From positions 558,001 through 622,000 of the forward strand of contig AP026139.1 of assembly GCA_030295235.1 (NCBI GenBank): a stretch of 64,000 bases of DNA, in the 5' to 3' direction. Source of the DNA: Fistulifera solaris. Taxonomy: Eukaryota > Bacillariophyta > Bacillariophyceae > Naviculales > Stauroneidaceae. The notes beneath the pieces are model-generated. The model ran no database searches, was not told the origin of the DNA, and worked only from the letters and a program-made list of their open reading frames with translations. Position numbers and translations under genes: made by a program. This document shows, in pieces, positions 25,731 to 56,731 of the stretch (its first letter is position 1; the number at the start of each line of letters is the position of its first letter).

Positions 25731-28700
25731 ATGGCTCCCAGAAATTCAATGTCACGTGGGTCGCCGAGCCTCCTGAGCGTGCGGGCGAAACTTGCTTTGT
25801 TCGATAACAAGCAAGGTAACCCTCCGGATGGTCATGGTAAAAACAATGAAAAGAAAGCTAGTGTGGAGCCTTTGATTCGCAGAAGATCTCTCGCAGAGAT
25901 AAGATCCCCTTGACGCCAATGACACCGAACGCAGGAAGGCTGTCGATTTCGTCTCCAGAAGCTCAGAAAAATAGCTTGGTTACGCCAGAAAAAAAGATTA
26001 TCGGCTCCGATGGCAAAGATAAACCCAAGTCCTTCTTCTACCGGCTCTAAGAATCCTCCGAAGAAAGTACCTTGGAATTCAAAATGGAAAGTTTCCAAGA
26101 GTCCGCAACCAAAACAAGCGGTCCAAGTCTCTATGGAAAACAGAGAAGGTGCGAATCGAGCAGAGATGCCAGCAGCTGAGCATTCTCGTGACCGTCTGTA
26201 TCAGCTATCACGGAGACATTCAGCGAAACTCATTGCGGCTAGAGCATCTCGCCAGAGCCAGGGTAATGCTTTGGATACTACGAAAACCACATCAGCCGAT
26301 GAGACAGACCCGAGGGTAAAGCCTGTGTCGCGGAAAATCGTAGCAACTCCGCCTAAGAATTTGCTTGAGAAGCGCGACAAGGCGATTCGTAAAGTGTATG
26401 GTGGGGATATTGTCAATAAAGTGTCGTCCAGTAGTGAGGAAACAGATCAAAAGGATAGACAAGAAAAGGGTACACCTACGAAGCCTAAACGCCATGCTTT
26501 TAAAGTGTCAGTTATCAATAACTCTTCGGCGCCGAGTGCTTACAATGCTTTTCAACCGAAGATAGCGGGTGTCATGACTAACACGGAAGGAGAACCGAAG
26601 GGCAAGGTGCCAAAAACCAATAGTTTCTCAGCCGATGACAATGCCAGAAACATTTTCCGATCTTCGTTCATGGGGGCCTTCCCAGGCACTCAAGAGCATC
26701 TTGCTTCAGAAGACAATAAGGCTAAATCTAACAACGTTCAAGAGAAGGGAAGAGATCTCGTTCCCCCGAATCGAAGGAGTAGTTTTGTCCATCGCACTCG
26801 CCAGGCGGAAAACGGAGGAGAGCCTTTGTCTGAAGATGAGATTATCGAAGAGAATCTCCCTGGTGAAACAATGTATTCTAGAATCCTGGGAAGGGCAAGA
26901 GGTGGACCAGTCAGTGTCGTGGAGATACGGCGGGCTGCTAGCCACGATAGCCGAATAACAGATATCACGGAGTTCACGGGGGAAAATGGATTTCCAGTTC
27001 GGACATCAGTTGTGTTTCCGCACCAAAAGTTTATTCGCAACGACGGTCAAATGTTTGAGAACGGCAAGGATATCGGTCATAAATTTGCAATGAACAAACC
27101 GAAACCATGGGAAGGCCTGGTGCCGCCACCCCCTCCCCCTCTTCCTCCTCAAAGTTTGATGGCAGCGAAGACGAATAGTTCAGACGAGTCGACCCCAGTC
27201 GCTGCGATGAATCAACCTAAACTCTCTGTAAGAGACCGCATTGTTGCTCACAATAGACAACGCTTTGAAAAGGTGCGCATTCGCGAGCGATAGAGTCCAA
27301 AGACAACAATGCATGGGCCCTTGGATACACGGAACATGGAAGAAGAAATGTCACTAAGTCGTCATCCATGAACGATAAAGACGCTTACCGATCTTTCCAT
27401 CAGATCGACGCCAAAATGGGATCGTTCGGTACTCTATCAAGTTCCGAGTTGACCTATCCCCAAGATGATTCACAGAGGGATACAAAAGCTTCCACGATTT
27501 TTCATCTGTCTGTGAAAGAGCGAGTTGCATTTCACAATCAAAATCCGATCGAACCGTCTGGTGCGACGCCGAAATCCAACTTTCAGCACCATCTAACTAA
27601 GGTAAAGCAACGTGGACCCAAAGAGCCAGTCGGGGCAACTTCCAATGCTAATGGAAAAATAGATCCAATGGCAGGGAAACGATTGGACCCAGAGTCAACT
27701 GCTATTATTGCACGGAAGCTACACTCTGATCCAACTGGGCCGCCTTCTAACGACGATTCAGAGTGTCTTCCTTCAGAGTCAACAGTGAATCAAGTAAAGC
27801 ACAGCGAGGAAACGGACCCGGAAATAAGCGAATGTCATAGGAGTCCAATGGACCCAGAATCGTCTGAAGGAATCACTTGCTCTGTACAGCAGCGCATTGC
27901 GTCTCTCTCAAGAGATGTGGAGCCATCGCAGAATACCAGTAAGAGAAGCAAAAGTTTGTCTCCGAAAAGAGCAGTTGCTGGAAAGGACGCTCGTAACACA
28001 GACGAAATTGTCAAACTTCAGTCAGAAGTCTCAGATCTTCGGTTGCGAATTAAGATCTTGGATAAGGACGGTAATCGAGCGGACCTTCTGGACCTTATCG
28101 AAGCTAAGGAAGACGAATGTCGAGAAAAGAGCGATCAATTGCGAAAACTGAACGAAAAACTTGACAGGATAGAGAGAGGGCTAGCAGAGATTGAGGCGGA
28201 ACGCCTTTGTTTAACGAACAGAGTTAACGAGTTGGAGAAGGATAATGAGCGAACAGAGAAGCAACTTAGACTTCGCGAGGCCGAGATTACAAGCCTTTCG
28301 AAGCGATGCCTGGATCAAGCTGAAGAGCTCAAAATCGTTACAGCATTCCGCGTTGACAAAAATTCGATGACGAAAGAAATCGAATCATTAAAAGAGTCCA
28401 TGGAGAAGAAGTCTTTGGAAGACGTAACAACTATCGATTGCTTAAGGAACAAATTGAACGAGACCAAGAGGGCTCGAGATGAGCTATCCATTCAGCTATC
28501 AACTATTAAACGAGATCGGGATGACTGCAGTCGACGCTTGCAAGAATGTCTAATTAGTAATCAACAACTATCGAAAGAGAGGTCGCGATGGGAAGCAGAA
28601 AAGAGTAGTCTCCTCAAAGATGTCGAGCAACAAATCAATGAGCTGAAAAGAAATCACGATAAAGAGCTTGTTAAGTTGCAGAACGATGCAAGAGTGCGCG

Positions 28701-31700
28701 AAAGAGAAAATCAGAGATTAAAGTCCAATTTTGACGAGAACGAAATCAAAATTGTTGACTTGAGCAAACGATTGATGGATGCCAAAGCATCTGCGGAAGA
28801 AACTCTGAAGGCTTTGGAGAGCACCTTTGAAAGCAAGCTCGAGTCACAGAATCGATATATTGACGCGTTAAAACTGGAGCTTACAGAAACTGCCGCTAGT
28901 CTTAAGTTTGCTCAAGAAATGCTCCATGAAAGCGAGAAAACGGTTGCCGAACGCGACATTATTGTGGAAGATCTTTTGGAACAGCTCTCTGAGCAAGAAC
29001 GCCAAGCAGCCGAAGCCCTGCAATCGGTCAGAAACGAGTTCGAAAGTCAAGCCATAGAAGCACTACATATGGCGAAGGCTAATTTTTGCACACTTTGCAA
29101 GAGTTTGTAGCCCATAGCGAACTCGAGGTCAAACAGCTCCGTGAAGAATACGAAGAGCAGATTTCAAGTGTCCAATCTCGCCTCGACAAAATTACAGACG
29201 ATAGTGAAGGAAAGGTTGAAGAGAGCAAGTCACTGATCGAGCGCCTTAATGCACAGCTTTCTGACGCCGAGGGCAAGCTAAAATCTATTTTCGAGAAACA
29301 CGAGCAAGAGATGGAGCTATCCCGCAAGCAATACGAAGACTCAAGGACTGCCTTTCAACAAGAACTTGATAAATTAACAGCGAACTACGACAAAGAGATA
29401 TTGCAGAAGAATAATGAGATTGAGAGACTTTCGCAAGTAAACGCAGAAGAGCGGAATCAACTGGAAACTCGGATCCGTCAACTAGTGACCGAGGCCGAGA
29501 AAAGCGAAGAAAAAATTCATTTAAGCACATCGGACTTCGAAAATCAGCTGCAATCTCTGAAAGGCAATCTAGACGAAAAGACGATGGTACTTGAGTTGCA
29601 AATTACGGAACTTCAAGACAAACTTGCCGAGGCCAGCGCCGAGCACTTACAAGAAGTTACGAAGCAAAAAACAGAGATCGAGTTCCTGAAAAGCAATCAT
29701 ATCGCACAGCAGATGAAGTTCTTAGGCGAACTGAAAGTGCAGGAGAACGAAGCGGATTCTTTGAGGTCTGAATTGATACGGACAAAAGCCGAGAGCGACT
29801 CTACGATTTCGAGACTTGCAGAGCAAGCAGACTCGACTGAACGTAAGTTAAGAGAAGCAATCGAAGAACACGAGAGAGAAATGCTACTTCAGAAAGAAAA
29901 GATCGCATACTTGGAGTCAAACGGATTCGATGAGAAGAAAAATCTACTATCGATGCTACAGGAGACCGAAGACTCGAAGAATGAGTTGATCAAAAGACTA
30001 GAGTCGGAGCTCAGTGAGCTTAAGGCAACCAGTTTGACACGAATAGAGTCGTTGGACGCGCACGTAGCCAAAATAAAGTCCGAGCATAAAGCACAAATCG
30101 CAAGCCTTGAAGAAGAAAAGGCAAAACAGCTTTCACTCATCATGCAATCGATAGAAGACAAGGAAAAGGAAATCGGCGCTAAAAACAGTGAAGCATCGGC
30201 ACTTCTAGTCGAAAAATGTGCTCTACAAGCTCAAGTCGACGAATCGGCTGAGAGACTACAAGAAAAGGAGACAGCTATTCAAGATCTCAAGTCTCAGCTT
30301 TCTAAAAGGCAGGACCAATTGGAAGCCAAAGTTGCATCTTTCTCTGAAACGGTTGCATTACTAAATGCTGAACATGAAAACGACATTGACAAGCTGTGCG
30401 TTTCACACAGGACGGAAGTGTCTATGCTTGAAGCAAAGTTGGTCGAACGCAATATGATGATAGAGTGCTTAGAAAAAGATATGGAAGCGCAAATGCGGCA
30501 ACTTATGGTCACAACGACGAGATTGGAGGAATTACAGGGCGACGGTGAACTGGTGGACGGGCTTACTGCCGATATCGAAGCCCTCGAACTCGAACGTGCA
30601 GCCCTGATGGAAGATCTTCACGAAAAAGATATGAATATTGCCGAGTTATCTGCTGAAATATTGAAACTTGAGATTGAGAAAGAAATTATTGCTCAGGATT
30701 CGGTAGAAGCGAAGAAAGCGAATGCGAAACTATTGGCTCAAGAAAAGCAACATGCGTCTCAGCTCAAGGAAGTATTAGAGTCTAGCGCCCACGAACAGCA
30801 GAAATATTCAGCTGTAGTGGCTTCATTGCAAGAAGATTTGCAGCAAAAAAGAGACCACATTGTCAGTTTACAGGAATCACTCAGACGGGCAGAATTGTCT
30901 CTCGAAAAAGCTTCCGACAACGCAAAACTCTCTGATCAAGTTCTCAATGAAAAGACAAGATAATCGGCGAGCTTCGTTCAGAATTGTCGAGGCAAATGGT
31001 AGAGAATCGCGGGTTGGCCTCAAAGCTTGCTGTCAAAGAAGACGAAATTCGCGATCTTGAAGTGGTGGAGATGTACGACAAGAATGAAAAGATCCGTCTT
31101 CTCCAAAATAATGTCGACAACCTTAGCGCCCAACTTGACTTCAAATCAGAGCAGTTCAACGTAAAAACCTCAGAGCTCGAGAACGAAGCATCGGAACTAA
31201 GGAAGAAGCTTGCTCAAATGTGTAAACAGGCGACGGACCAACGGGATAACATGCAACGTGAGATCGACATCTTACAGAAGCAGTGCGAAAACTCAAAACT
31301 TGAATCTGACTTTGCAAAAATCAAATTGGAGGAGACAGAGCGGAAGCTAAGGGACGCCAAGCACGAGACGGAGTCTTTTTCGACAAAGATCCATGACTTG
31401 GAAGTGGCGTGCAAAGAACTGCAAGACAACTGTCGTGAGTTTCAGCTCGCTCAGGAAGAAGTGAATAACGAGCGCAACGAGCTCACACTACGACTGGAAA
31501 AGGAGATGGGACTGGTGCGTGAACACGAAGATATCCGATGGGATCTGGAGAGACGATGTGAAGATTTGAAGCAGGAACTTGACTCGCGCGACGAGAACGC
31601 GTTAGAACTAACCAAGAAAATCGAGGGTTTTGAGAGGGCCATGAATGAGAAGATCTTGCTCAATGAAGAATTAAGTCGTCACAACAAGGAACTGGAATCT

Positions 31701-32213
31701 TTCCTACAAACGCAGAACCAGGCCGTTGACCAAGTACGGGCAGAAGTGGACTCACTGAGAATTAAGCTTCAAGCTCGAGATGATCAAATCAAAGAACTCA
31801 AAGCGGAGAAAGCCAACCAAGAGCAAAGTTTGTTGGATGAACTTGAAACTGAACGCCAGAACCTGCAAATTGTTACCAGCGAACTCGAAGCGACACAGCA
31901 AAAATTAGGAGTCTTGCTCCGTGAAAACAAAGACATTGTCGAGCTCGAGAAGGAGAGAGAAGCTCTGCAAGACAAGGTGCGCCGACAAGAAGCCTACCTA
32001 AAACGAAAACTTGATAAGGAAAAGATGGGAAGAGCCACTGCTCGACCGAACGGCTTGCATGGATCACCGACGAGGCGATTAGCGAATCCTAGCAAGCGTC
32101 AGTCGACGCCTATATCACCCGAGCTGAAGGTTGTGCCCACCCAGTCTACAGCTACCACGTCTACGGGGGGATCAAAACTTGACTGGGAACTTGACTGTTT
32201 GTTGGCTGATTAA
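25731..32213 (+). CDS. Giant coiled-coil protein (about 2,160 aa)
   Basis: I read this as one gene broken by about five one-base errors: C-run 25906-25909, TCCTTCTTCT near 26031, GAG near 27285, T-run 29083-29087 and A-run 30950-30953. Each repair joins adjacent open frames. Start ATG 25731. The first ~520 aa are basic, Ser/Pro-rich and disordered, with several RDKAIRKVYGG-type segments and a poly-Pro stretch (PPPPPPLPPQ). From about 27990 to 32010 the product is an almost unbroken Glu/Lys/Leu coiled coil of about 1,350 aa, then a basic Ser/Thr/Pro tail. No motor head is visible. A golgin-, centrosome- or tether-like scaffold is plausible but not shown. Its stop codon overlaps that of the convergent next gene. 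Confidence 0.75.
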
Positions 32214-50453: not shown

Positions 50454-52099
50454 CTATCTGATCAAGTTTTCTACCTCCAATTCCGATGCAAGATTTTCGT
50501 ACCATTGTTGCTCTCGCTCCGCTCGATCTTGTCGATCGGCTAGCGCTATAAAAGGCTCTACTACTTTCCCTTCCGTATCCAAATGTAGCTGGTTCATCAT
50601 TTGCTCGTACGTTCGCTTGGTAATATATTGTTGTTTTCGAGACAAGAGCTGATCTAACATGTGCTCCATTCGAACCAGCAGAAGCATATTGCCGTAACCG
50701 TCGGAGTGAATCTTATCATGGACCTTCCACCAAAGCTTGCGTGTTTCGACCACCAAAGGATCTTTGGACACCCGAGTACTCTCTGGTTCGCGGCCGAATT
50801 CCCAGCCAAACGATTTTCCGATGTTAGCGAGAATGATGCGCTGCCAATCACGATTCGTTTTGTCTCGCTTCTTTTGAATATCTTGAAGACGCTCTAAATC
50901 GCCCAAGTAAACACCGTGAAAGCCTTGAGCGTGACTGGTTCCCCATGTGAAACTAAAAGATCGATAAGACTACGAAATGTCATACAAGCGGGAGGATCGA
51001 CGAAAAACACTTACCCCTTGGGTTGCACCATATATTGGAACTCAAGCTCAATGTGCGGATCCACGGGCTTCATATCCTTGTCTAGTCGATAGAGGAGGGG
51101 AATGCCAGTTGGTATGGTCATTCCTTTAATATCCTCGTCACTGATGTTGTCAATATGCTTTACCAAGGTACGGATAGTGTTAGCGTGCGATACAATCATA
51201 CATCGATTACCAGCTCTCATCGATGGGACGATGACCGAGTTGAAAAACGGCATGATCCGGTTGGCGGCATCTTTCAGAGATTCTGCTCGAGAAGCTTCCA
51301 ATTGTTCTGCTGAAAGTGAACGATACCTGTTGTGCGATAGCACATTTAGTTGAATTCAAACAAAAGTGGATACGGAATGCATTTTGTCGTCGTACCTTCG
51401 GTCATTACCGTGCCAATGTTTATGATCATTTTCCATTCGTGGTGGCCGTACATCGTACGCTCGTCTCATTTGCATCACGAGCTCTTGGTCGAGACCCATC
51501 TCTTCATACGCCGTATCCTTGTTGTAACCTTGCAAAGCCCCATAGTGACGCTCATTCAAACGCCACGATTTGGTGACGGGAATCCAGTGTTGTTTTGAGG
51601 TATTCAAGGCCATATTACAACTGAACGAAGCTCTCCGCAGGACGGAAGTGAAAGCATGATCAATTTCAATTTGATTTTCGTACAAAAGTCTCCCCGCTGT
51701 CCGAGCTTCCATACGGCCTCGTTCGGTCAAATTGACATCACACCAGCCCGTATATCGATTCTGTAAATTCCATTCCGATTCGCCGTGTCGTAACAATACG
51801 AGAGTATATAACGATTCTTCACCGTAATCCGCCAATCGGAAGGGTGGAGGAGGCGTATCGCACGGCACCAAGCCATTCCAAAACAGGTTGGAAGGTATCG
51901 CCGTATTGAGTGTCGTCGATACCGCTAGTGTTTCTCTCCGGGCTTTGACTCCGCGAGGCGTTTCTTTCAGTTTGACAGGTCCGCTTCGTTTCTTTGGGGC
52001 GTTGGAATCGCCATTCTCGTTCGAAGAAGAAAACAAGCGGACGCACAAATGATCCCCCCAAAGAGCCCGCTGACTACGCCGCCGAAGTGAAGTGATCAT
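50454..52099 (-). CDS. Mitochondrial-type phosphoglycerate mutase with C-terminal extension
   Basis: Exons 52099-51396, 51326-51015 and 50952-50454, with introns of 69 and 62 nt. 504 aa; an upstream in-frame ATG at 52285 exists but the short start gives a clear mitochondrial presequence (MITSLRRRSQRALWGDHLCV). dPGM motifs: VLLRHGESEWN with the phospho-His, NLTERGRMEA, SWRLNERHYGALQGYNK and MIVSHANTIRTLVKHI with the second His. After about residue 340 a helical extension of about 160 residues has no obvious match. Diatoms are known to run lower glycolysis in mitochondria, which the presequence fits. The first intron is the point where the two catalytic blocks join. Confidence 0.9.
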
Positions 52100-52486
52100 T
52101 TTATAGTTTGTGTATTCAATGCGTGATGACTGTGTGCTGTTTTCAATGAGCCTTGTTCTCTTTAGAAAAGAGAATGGACTCGTTGTTGTCAAAATTCTAT
52201 TATTGATGTCGTCGCTGCTTTTGTCTTGAACAAATGTCACAACTGTTGCTCTACCAGGAATGGGGTGACAAACTAGTCCATTCATCGTGACAACAAAAAT
52301 GAGTCACGAGATTGACGACTGTTTTGTCGAATTAATCATCATCCTACATCCTACATCCTACTCTAGTACTACAAGTACGTAATTTCGTAAGGTTACCGAA
52401 ACTAGCAAAATTATGGATAAGGGACCATCATAAATCATAAACACACTTGTCATTCAAAGGAACCCTAATCGACAACAGTTCCCAAA
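52100..52486. other. Intergenic
   Basis: 387 bp between the mutase start and the downstream gene's stop. A CATCCTAC repeat (CATCCTACATCCTACATCCTAC) lies near 52330-52352. Nothing else recognised. Confidence 0.35.
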
Positions 52487-55400
52487 TTAAAATCTTGAGT
52501 TTGGTTTCAATTCTCGTTTCATGAGAAAGACTCGAGCTTCGATTGCACTAGAAATATGCTGATGTTCCATGACGACGTCGATCCATCGATCAGCCAGTTT
52601 TTTCAGGCAGCGCCCCCGTGGAGTCCAGTAATGCTGCAGCAATCCAAGGCGTGCTACTTCCACCACATTTTGCTGGACTCGACGGCTCCAGTTGGGAAGA
52701 TTAGGCGGGAGACTCACTGATGGATCGGCTGGAATACGCTTCAAACTTTTTCGTGATGGAGGTATAAGATAAATATCGGCAGACCCATTCAGCTCAGGAA
52801 ACAGTCCCTTCATTAATTGGGCCGAAGAAGTAGCCATCGTAAACGATTGCCCTTTGGGAAACTGAAGTCAGCCAGAGACAAGTGCAGCAAAAACATGATA
52901 CGTGTGGTGAGACTTACAAACATTCTGAGCAAGCCATGTTTTCTTGTAACGCATTTTTGTTGGACAACCGAGATCACGGCAAAATGTTTTCAGCATCTCA
53001 TCATCATCTTTCAAGACCAGACGCTCGTAAATTTGCAAGCGCTCAGTAGCTTCTCGACTACTGCGGGTATTTTTGGGGATGTCCATGTAATCGCTGGATA
53101 CACAGACTTGCCGTGCCATCCAGTACAACTCCATCTTGAGTCCTAACTGAAGATTCAGTAGCTCATCATCAAATCTGTCATTTGGGCGGACTTTTTTGGA
53201 AACAAATAAATCCGTGCTTCGATGCAAATTATTCCAAAGTCGCCGTAGTTCCTCTTCCAAAAAGGCGTGTTGCAAAAGCAACCTCCCTGATGAACAAGAC
53301 CAAACCAAAGTCCGATGTGTCAAGGGTGTGTGATCATGCTTCCACAACTCGAATACACACTTTCGATATACATGGATTCTTCTGGGTAGTACGGTGCGAA
53401 ATAGCTGCTTTCGGAGAAGCAGACCACGCACATGGGCCTGGATACGCGCGATAGCCTTCTTGAGCCAATTATAAGCAATTCGCACTTTACGTCCCCGGAT
53501 GCGGGCTGTAATTAGGCTTGCTAACCACCGAGTAGTTCGAAACTGTTTTTTCAAGAGTACACCACGAAAAAAGTGTTGCAATACGTGTGCTCCAACATCA
53601 GGATTCATTGCCATCGGAGCCGTCGCCTCTAAAGATAGAGCCCTCAATTCCGTCAGTTGATGATTCTGCTTTTTCGAGATATACAAGCGCCCATGCCGCT
53701 GTAATGCCATAAAAATACCGATTAGAATGCTTTGTTTCCTGCGAGTATTCCAAATCATTTCTTGGCTTTCAGTTTTGCGTTGAAAGGAGAGATTGCTAGA
53801 TGCGTGTCCACGTTGTAGTCCGCGGAGACTGCGTGCTGTGGGCGACGGTCCAAAAGGCGCCATCATGGTGCCGAGAGCTTGTTCCAAGCGTGCCATGACA
53901 CTGAAGGGTTGTTTTTGGGCAGCCTGTTGAAATAACCGTTGCGAATAATTTTGCCAAGGATGCAAACCAGCAATAAGGCCATCCCCGGAAATCGCAGCAC
54001 TTCTTGTATTAGCTGAATAATCGAATTGCCTGGGTGCACGTAGTGGACCGATTAAAGATAAATCCAAAGTTGGAAAGGAAGCATATTGCCAATTACTTTG
54101 ATCTTCTGGCAATCCTATATGCGATGGAGGCGGTGGAGTGTACGTTTCATGAAGAGCATGCTCCAGCTCATTGGGTAAATAGGAAGATGAATGATTGCTC
54201 ATTTGTCGCTGCAAGACACGTTTCATGTAGACGCTTTTCGCTTGAATTGCATCATCCAAAAATTGCACATGAGGTGAGGGTGGCTCTTGGTGGCACTCCT
54301 GCAAAAAAAGAACTGAACAGTTGTGTGTTCAAAACGCTCTTCACATAATTCTGCTGCTTAGCGTTGATTGAGAGACTTGCCACAAATGCATTGTATTGAA
54401 AAGTTTCTTCATCGGGGCGAATAAATTGGCGATAATCTCGAAACACCGAAACAAAAACTTGAAGAACGAGGATCGGATATCACTGGAACAAAACCCATCA
54501 GGATCTTGCAACGAGAAGAGATTGCTATCGTCCACATTTCTGGGAGATGAGTTGCCGAATGAACCCGTTTTCGATCTTGCTCTCCTCTTACGGGGAAACC
54601 TTGAGCTTGACAACGATGACTTCACAGAAGGGGATACTGTCGCCCTAGGACTGCTTGTAGATATAGACATGGCTCCTTGTTCTATCAGTCGAACAGGCTG
54701 ATACAATTCGGCATCGCGGTAGGCGCGATTAATCGAGCTCAAGATTTCTTCCCTTGTTTGAGATCGATTGGATATTAGTTCAACTGGCAGACATTGTGCG
54801 TATCTGAAGCCCATAGCATTGCTGTAACTACTTCGAAGCTTGCTTCCCGAATTCACACTCATAGAATCATCCACAGGACTGAACGGCATGTAAAGTCCTG
54901 CAGCACAATTCTAGCAAACGGTGCTTCAATTTATTTGCATCTCGTTCGGGCAACGCCGGCAACCCACCGCAACCACCACCCAAAATAACCTGATCCGTGT
55001 CAAGTCCGACCCACACAATATCATCATCCTGGGGTCGGTTTGTCGGAAGCGGACCCTGCAGCCCCAACAAGAAAGGCACAGGTGCCTCCAACAATTCCGC
55101 CATGTGCTTCGGCATGACGGGCAGATAGACGCCCTGCCATTGAAAGGGATACAGTAAACATATCAAAGCTTCTGCTACCGGTGTCAACAAGCTACTGCTT
55201 TCTTGTTGCGTGCACAAAACGACTTTTTGTTCACGGAGTAAACACCCCCAAACGATGAGAATGTGACTGATCCGCAAACACGAGAACAACGGCTGAAAGG
55301 AAAATTCGCGCAACGGCCAACGTCCCGATTGTAAAATCGTCCATGGTGGTGCAGCAGCGGTATACGAAAGCTGGATTTGTACATTGGGCGGCGGAATAGG

Positions 55401-56731
55401 AACTTGCGCTACAAAATGAGCAATGTAACGTTCGAGTGGTAAGGGAGCGGGCGTCAAAGCCACGCGATAAATCAAACACAAGAATTTGCGAAACAAATCC
55501 CAATAAGGATGATAGCTCAAGAGCACCAAACATTTGGGAAAAAGAGTTCTTGCGGTGGCTGATTGGATTTGTTGGGTGGATGATCCTTGCGAGGTGGATG
55601 CAATGACGCACTCTCCCAAATATTGTACAAGTGCTGCGCGTCGTGCACATCGTCGTACACTTGCAGAACTGCTCCATACAAGCGTTCTCCTGTACCAGTT
55701 GTGACACAAAACGTAAAAAAAGGAAGGGGGTGACCGACGTGTCCGGGCATGACATCCCTGGGGAAAGACGAGTAAGCCCAAATGCGAAGGAAAGTCGTCC
55801 TCTGGTTCCGGGAAGCAGTCAGCAACTTGGGGAGCTAAAAATATTTGTTCCGGATGTGGCGATTGTGTATGATGATGATTTTGTTTCAGATTCATTGTCA
55901 TAAGAAGAGTATCCAGTGTCTCGGAAGGAGTCAAAACACAAAAATAGCGAACCAATCTGTTCCTTTGTAAATCAGTGTTCTGTGCGTGCGTGGTGGTGTA
56001 AAGATGCGTGGAACGTGAAAATGAGGACTCCAAATGACACAACTGCGGAAACTGTTGGTCCCAGTGATGTCTTTGTAGTATATTCGTCCAAGCTTGTTTC
56101 GCCATGACATGATGCTGTGTGGGAGGCAAACAAAAGCCAAGGCTTCATACTTGGCTCGCACAAAGAGCCACCGTTCCGCTTTGGAGCAGTCACTGGACGG
56201 TCGAGGAAGTATACTTGGGTTGTAGTACGCCTCCAGTGTTTGCGCGGCTCGTTGATTGTGAATGTAGGGCAGCAGGGCCGGCGGTGGGCGCGGTACGTGC
56301 TGATACAGCAGCAAGTCGTGTGCGTCGGCACACAAGGAACAAATCAGGACTCCCATGAATGCAACACGATCAGCCGCCTCATCGGCTGGATCTGGCACTG
56401 TCCTGCCTTCTTCTTCTTCGTCGTATAGAATACTGTTGTCATCGTCCGTGTCGTGTTGCGGGAAGGATACAAATACTTGTGATGCATCGACCAAAATGCT
56501 ATGGCAATCTGCACAAACTCGATTCGACGGAATAGAAAGTAACTGATTCAATGTTGTTGACGTGCACTTTGTGTCAGGAATCATTTCAATCGCACATGGT
56601 GGTGACAAACAGCCGCACAAAGGAGGAACGCTTGTTTGGTGTTTTCCTTGTGGAGTTGAAAATTGGAAATAATTAAAGCAGCGCGAGAAAAACCGTTGAA
56701 AGTCTGTTGACGGTGTGACATCGGATGACAT
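52487..56731 (-). CDS. ArfGAP-like + DENN + IQ fusion protein
   Basis: One gene of about 1,396 aa, ATG 56731, with one clear intron (52862-52917) and several one-base breaks (AAAA 56132-56135, A-run 55715-55721, CCC 55615-55617, near 54935, near 54450, A-run 54303-54309). N-terminus: a zinc finger Cys73-x2-Cys76 and Cys131-x2-Cys134 in an ArfGAP-like fold (LLSIPSNRVCADC, GVLICSLCADAHDLL, NPSILPRPSS, FVRAKYEALAF). The ArfGAP arginine finger position (CxxHR) reads His138-Asp139. Next the DENN domain (LYGAVLQVYDD, CLVLLSYHPYWDLFR, FQWQGVYLPVMPKHMAELLEAPVPFLLGL), its C-terminal part (VFRDYRQFIRP), then an IQ motif (ARIQAHVRGLLLRKQ). Rab GEF activity is likely; GAP activity is doubtful. Confidence 0.8.

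Follow-up and report, generated by a model that had tools for sequence, protein, structure and literature searches.

A diatom gene that joins an ArfGAP-like zinc finger to a DENN module and probably to an IQ array

The gene reported here lies on the minus strand of a 64,000-base window of the genome of the diatom Fistulifera solaris (bases 558001-622000 of contig AP026139.1, hereafter C29, in an assembly of 51.7 Mb and 61 contigs), and its closest described relatives are DENN proteins and ArfGAPs. DENND1A and DENND1B (connecdenn) share its tripartite DENN module and are its best matches among the sequences of solved structures; we know of neither an N-terminal ArfGAP-like domain nor an IQ array in either of them. 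DENND1A is an exchange factor for Rab35. ADAP1 (centaurin-alpha 1) and other ArfGAPs share with the present protein, in register, the Cys4 motif and the His that follows the second Cys pair, and the RP..SDC..RAKYE stretch of the present domain resembles ADAP1, only at an expected value (E) of 1.5. Compared with these ArfGAPs, the present protein has Asp for the catalytic Arg, 54 rather than about 16 residues between the Cys pairs, and no recognisable LGVHxSxVRS, the stretch that contacts Arf in canonical ArfGAPs. A DENN fold is tied to Arf-family GTPases in C9orf72-SMCR8 and Avl9 as well (PMC8213707, PMC12803157), but there the DENN/longin fold is itself the GTPase-activating protein (GAP), and Avl9 is described as being without a canonical ArfGAP domain (PMC12803157). 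The same source mentions DENND1B as a Rab35 exchange factor and reports Avl9 and DENND6A as Arf-family GAPs (PMC12803157); DENND1 is reported to be activated by Arf5 for its action on Rab35 (PMC13405217, citing Kulasekaran 2021). An Arf link for a DENN protein is plausible because of these two observations, the activation of DENND1 by Arf5 and the reports of DENN proteins as Arf-family GAPs. Among the papers listed by literature searches, no title or abstract opening describes an ArfGAP-DENN or DENN-IQ fusion, and two of these papers treat ArfGAP and DENN as separate proteins or domains (PMC8923023, PMC12803157). A preliminary description of the locus, made from its sequence alone, had called the combination not a standard architecture, which agrees with those titles and abstract openings, the present genome being the sole eukaryotic genome searched; it may prove widespread among diatoms, or carry a database annotation already.

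The gene is present in two copies. Beyond about 6.5 kb, the window is collinear with the first 100 kb of contig C28, at 81-92% identity over collinear pieces longer than 300 bases, and C28 carries a second copy of the gene (L002) with 89% DNA identity to the C29 copy. ArfGAP and DENN genes elsewhere in the assembly also sit on contig pairs (C1/C2, C3/C4, C5/C6, C11/C12 and others), and these paired collinear contigs look like an allopolyploid genome; F. solaris is described as an allopolyploid oleaginous diatom (PMC5935921). In the window copy the segments follow one another on the minus strand in the order ArfGAP-like, DENN, IQ, and a continuous product requires six frame changes, near positions 56135, 55721, 55540, 54912, 54455 and 54309. 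In the C28 copy the ArfGAP-like part, the linker, uDENN, DENN and dDENN all lie within a single unbroken frame of 803 codons, which differs from the window frame by further indels of 9, 3 and 3 bases. The linker between the ArfGAP-like and DENN parts has a ratio of non-synonymous to synonymous substitution (dN/dS) of 0.16 between the homeologs. The unbroken C28 frame, together with selection on both sides of the junction and across the linker, supports a fusion of the ArfGAP-like and DENN parts that is real at the level of sequence, and bears out the earlier proposal that the two belong to one product. The IQ part had been placed in the same product; here the order of the segments and the first two parts stand, and the joining of the IQ part is likely only, as a frame change is needed in both copies. 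The C28 copy still has two frame changes, one at the dDENN end and one before the IQ array, and the window copy shows an open frame of 486 codons through the IQ part, counted from the dDENN end.

Translation probably starts at the conserved Met at 56584 rather than at the Met at 56731, since the region of 56731 aligns poorly and the C28 frame has no Met upstream of the conserved one; the residue earlier numbered Asp139 thereby becomes Asp90. The features of the window copy are as follows.

56135..56584, minus strand: N-terminal ArfGAP-like zinc-finger domain, in a single frame from the conserved Met (PF01412 below cut-off, hhalign, dN/dS)
56504..56515, minus strand: first Cys pair, C24-x2-C27, in register with the first ArfGAP Cys pair
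56342..56503, minus strand: stretch of 54 residues between the Cys pairs (both copies compared)
56330..56341, minus strand: second Cys pair, C82-x2-C85, in register with ArfGAPs
56315..56320, minus strand: His89-Asp90 where ArfGAPs have the conserved His-Arg (arginine finger), identical in both homeologs
55658..55961, minus strand: uDENN/longin part (PF03456), with a frame change inside near 55721
54993..55541, minus strand: central DENN domain (PF02141)
54304..54475, minus strand: dDENN (PF03455 below cut-off; dN/dS 0.07), with frame changes near 54455 and 54309
53408..53581, minus strand: three IQ-type motifs, LQHFFRGVLLK, ITARIRGRKVR and IQAHVRGLLLR, 23 residues apart (spacing shuffles, PF00612)
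52862..52917, minus strand: probable intron, GTAAGT donor at 52917 and AG acceptor at 52862 or 10 bases on, signals shared by C28
52487..52861, minus strand: possible last exon, open in both copies, with little sign of protein selection (dN/dS 0.67)

We then asked what the N-terminal domain is. The zinc-ligand pattern C-x2-C...C-x2-C followed by His is present in both copies and predicts a zinc site from sequence, and the C-terminal ArfGAP signature is retained. Of the nine other ArfGAP types in the genome, eight were aligned and compared with the domain by hhalign. The match spanned the whole domain (probability 87, E 4.1e-6, score 38.8) and kept the His and all four Cys in register; in controls with Cys and His fixed and the rest shuffled, 300 of 300 scored below 38.8 and the best reached 31.2. 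A plain hidden Markov model (HMM) built from the same alignment gave 18.5 bits, against 8.9 for the best of 5,000 shuffles. While distant, homology to ArfGAP is thus probably real. The domain is also strongly constrained between homeologs, with a dN/dS of 0.06 (6.5 non-synonymous and 27.5 synonymous changes, which are small counts) against 0.05 for the DENN core; its two conserved ArfGAP-like segments give 0.05 and 0.04 (the second half 0.04) and the insert 0.13. Both peculiarities noticed in the preliminary description were confirmed: the Cys pairs are separated by 54 residues in C29 and 51 in C28, away from the ArfGAP norm of about 16, and the arginine-finger position is Asp in both copies. 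From the insert and the Asp it would follow that the ArfGAP-like part is non-catalytic.

The core of the DENN module is well supported by profile search, where the check proposed earlier gave a strong match above the cut-off. PF02141 (DENN) matched at 3.7e-42 in the window copy and 6.5e-43 in C28, and PF03456 (uDENN) at 1.2e-11 in C28 and at 1.9e-4 and 3e-4 in the window copy, where it is divided between two frames; in the C28 protein the two domains score 147.3 and 45.3 bits (cut-offs 23.4 and 22.3), in the order found in tripartite DENN proteins. PF03455 (dDENN) is in place after DENN at 0.0033 and 0.026, with 17.9 and 15 bits against a cut-off of 26.8. Searched against the sequences of the PDB, the C28 protein matched DENND1A (7.3e-16) and DENND1B (1.1e-14), and no other chain reached E 1 or lower; NCBIfam gave no match.

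Beyond the DENN module, the pattern (hydrophobic)xxxxRGxxx(R/K) recurs three times at exact 23-residue steps in both copies. When the 170 residues around the array were shuffled 20,000 times in the window copy, no such spacing arose, nor did it in 20,000 shuffles for C28, for a pattern picked after the sequence had been seen. What had been called an IQ-like segment is therefore present, and that wording was too modest for three motifs at 23-residue spacing. The 3' end of the gene and the frame after the probable intron are uncertain. With the first acceptor (AG at 52862) the protein ends at 52794 in the window copy and has a matching end in C28; with the second, ten bases on, a longer frame is maintained to 52487. 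Substitutions after 52794 fall 10/15/21 by codon position, a weak third-position excess. The protein would be about 1,240-1,340 residues long.

Other open reading frames (ORFs) of the region were surveyed for frame breaks as well. Window ORFs of at least 250 amino acids were aligned with C28, some of them overlapping and sharing gaps, and two further ones being without a counterpart in the C28 stretch compared. Frame-changing gaps occurred in 22 of the 25 aligned ORFs (57 gaps, 45 of them single-base, per 28,787 bases), while the third codon position was the most diverged in all 25. In the reverse survey, starting from C28 ORFs, gaps were present in 25 of 27 (86 per 30,719 bases), and 24 of the 27 had their greatest divergence at the third position. 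Across window positions 6574-61260, conserved frames of this size thus differ between homeologs by about two frame-changing gaps per kb; from its start to dDENN the present gene has six in about 2.3 kb, or 2.6 per kb against the mean of 2.0, and by eye five of the six fall within T runs. A neighbouring ORF at 51359-52303, phosphoglycerate-mutase-like by eye, has no frame-changing gaps. Because a similar gap rate is found in most other window ORFs, the breaks appear ordinary for this assembly, and the simplest reading is that those of the gene are assembly errors. Gene models built on the assembly are likely often broken. Introns as the cause of the breaks between the ArfGAP-like and DENN parts were rejected, as the C28 frame is open throughout, and the similar gap rate in most other ORFs, with a protein under selection, does not support the window copy as a pseudogene. 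For the dDENN end, at which neither copy continues in frame, an intron was considered and thought unlikely because the preceding dDENN differs mostly synonymously (4 non-synonymous and 12 synonymous changes).

Within this genome the combination appears confined to one gene pair. We detected 16 DENN loci, belonging to seven DENN gene pairs, and searched each locus with 1.5 kb flanks in six frames with the ArfGAP profile: the present gene scored E 4.4e-4 and 0.0066 at its two loci, and no other locus did better than 2.6, in a search that an ArfGAP part more than 1.5 kb from its DENN locus would escape. Proximity of DENN genes to PF01412 matches is a weaker test, because the present gene is itself missed by that search. 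A wider ancestry of the fusion within the genome was rejected, since, of the seven DENN gene pairs, only that of the present gene scores with the ArfGAP profile over the span searched. The nearest DENN relative found in the genome, a paralog on C5/C6 (L029/L030, L055/L056) with about 34% identity over 274 residues, showed no ArfGAP-profile match when plus-strand ORFs of 70 amino acids or more in the surrounding 8 kb were searched (best E 1.2). At this paralog (C5:459000-467000, C6:429500-437500) the DENN gene is followed by a long ORF that contains an acidic stretch and a CxxC...CxxC pattern and by eye looks DENND4/PPR-like. On C11 and C12 (C11:301909-310756, C12:273333-282371), a distinct ArfGAP gene lies about 8.5 kb from a same-strand DENN gene in both homeologs. 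Viral contigs gave 15 pattern matches, of which none is a relative.

The nine other ArfGAP types in the genome provide a reference for the two peculiarities of the domain. The finger Arg is present in eight of the nine and replaced by Gln in the ninth (L015/L016), and the spacing between the Cys pairs is 16 in six, 19 in one and 28 in one, with a further one split by an intron and left without a measurement. The type with His-Gln (C23:905915-906253, C24:866464-866802) scores above the PF01412 cut-off all the same (57.7 and 57.6 bits). The type with 28 residues between the Cys pairs (L010, C15:704679-705146) has an intact arginine finger and a Pro-rich excess of 12 residues at the place of the insert.

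Elsewhere in the window, four adjoining long ORFs on the plus strand at 25923-32210 (456, 613, 626 and 420 amino acids) are conserved in C28 and lie largely in a stretch with AT skew near 0.2-0.3. They gave no Pfam match at 0.001 and are possibly one very long protein.

We propose, tentatively and at a probability of roughly 0.42, that the gene product is a Rab exchange factor of the DENN type, fitted with a docking module that derives from an ArfGAP and is no longer catalytic, and with an arm that binds calmodulin. An N-terminal domain derived from an ArfGAP zinc finger would have lost its catalytic arginine and gained a long insert, with a single transcript presumably running through the IQ part and the DENN module predicted to act as a Rab exchange factor. 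The ArfGAP-like domain would have stopped speeding GTP hydrolysis and become a docking module, most likely for Arf-GTP on membranes; active Arf might then position or switch on the Rab exchange activity of the DENN module, and calmodulin at the IQ arm could bring Ca2+ control. Both the coupling of Arf and Rab systems and the binding of Arf by the ArfGAP-like domain are inferences. The fullest form of the proposal, a one-protein Arf-to-Rab relay under Ca2+ control in which the ArfGAP fold reads Arf-GTP and activates the fused DENN with calmodulin as a lever, we consider doubtful.

Several observations weigh against this proposal. In the HMM check suggested earlier, PF01412 ranked first among Pfam matches to the window fragment (on its first half), and the curated cut-off of 28.7 bits was not reached there (6e-5, 23.6 bits), by the whole C28 protein (0.003, 18.1 bits) or by the second half of the C28 copy (0.019, 15.5 bits), where it is again the best Pfam match. 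The locus is absent among the 26 matches of the genome-wide PF01412 search, the C28 domain matched solved ArfGAPs at E 1.5-2.3 only, an antibody chain at E 2 falling in that range, and AlphaFold2, run on the single sequence of the domain, gave an uninformative model (mean predicted local distance difference test score 42). Since LGVHxSxVRS is not recognisable in the domain, Arf binding may have been lost together with catalysis. On the IQ side, PF00612 reached 0.0074 and 16.4 bits on the third motif in the window copy and 0.043 and 14 bits in C28, against a cut-off of 20.3, and the array, with a dN/dS of 0.29, is less constrained than the ArfGAP-like and DENN parts.

Much of this evidence would suit a relic zinc finger that serves folding or non-Arf contacts, the gene then encoding a plain DENN Rab exchange factor with a decorated N-terminus. 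The lost arginine finger, the unrecognisable Arf-contacting stretch, the 54 residues between the Cys pairs, the sub-threshold PF01412 score and the lack of significant matches to solved ArfGAPs are all consistent with it. The dN/dS values of the conserved segments and of the insert show a domain that is not decaying, though on small counts, and constraint by itself is no proof of Arf binding; we regard a relic finger as a serious possibility. The DENN module might instead itself be a GAP for an Arf-family GTPase, as reported for Avl9 and DENND6A, monomeric DENN proteins being able to act as Arf-family GAPs (PMC12803157); the protein would then be a double Arf regulator rather than an exchange factor for Rabs. 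DENN-type GAPs are described as carrying their arginine in the loop between longin strands b4 and b5 (PMC12803157, Avl9 preprint), where it would be expected to be conserved; here that loop, assigned by eye, is among the faster-evolving segments (dN/dS 0.37, 82% identity between homeologs). This makes a DENN-type GAP improbable, and the nearest solved relatives are DENND1A and DENND1B. Separate production of the ArfGAP-like, DENN and IQ parts, with two or more genes or transcripts merged in our reading, would account for the six breaks in the window copy and for the frame change needed after dDENN in both copies, but it sits poorly with one C28 frame running from before the ArfGAP-like part to the dDENN end, with the constrained linker and the in-frame indels of 9, 3 and 3 bases, and with an IQ part open over 486 codons in a region where such breaks are common; we think it very unlikely. 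Least probable is an ArfGAP-like domain still active through another arginine, for although arginines lie nearby (R99 in the window copy, for example), both copies have Asp at the finger position, and R99 falls in a Pro-rich stretch, out of register with any conserved Arg of the other types.

In model organisms, Arf and Rab switches are joined by relays of separate proteins. If the full relay under Ca2+ control exists, the protein would correspond, in covalent form, to the Arf5-DENND1-Rab35 relay that is reported from animal cells. Both partners would be named directly by a natural fusion, which would also offer a ready test of Arf-to-Rab signalling beyond animals and fungi, and the protein would exemplify an ArfGAP fold kept under strong selection after loss of its catalytic residue.

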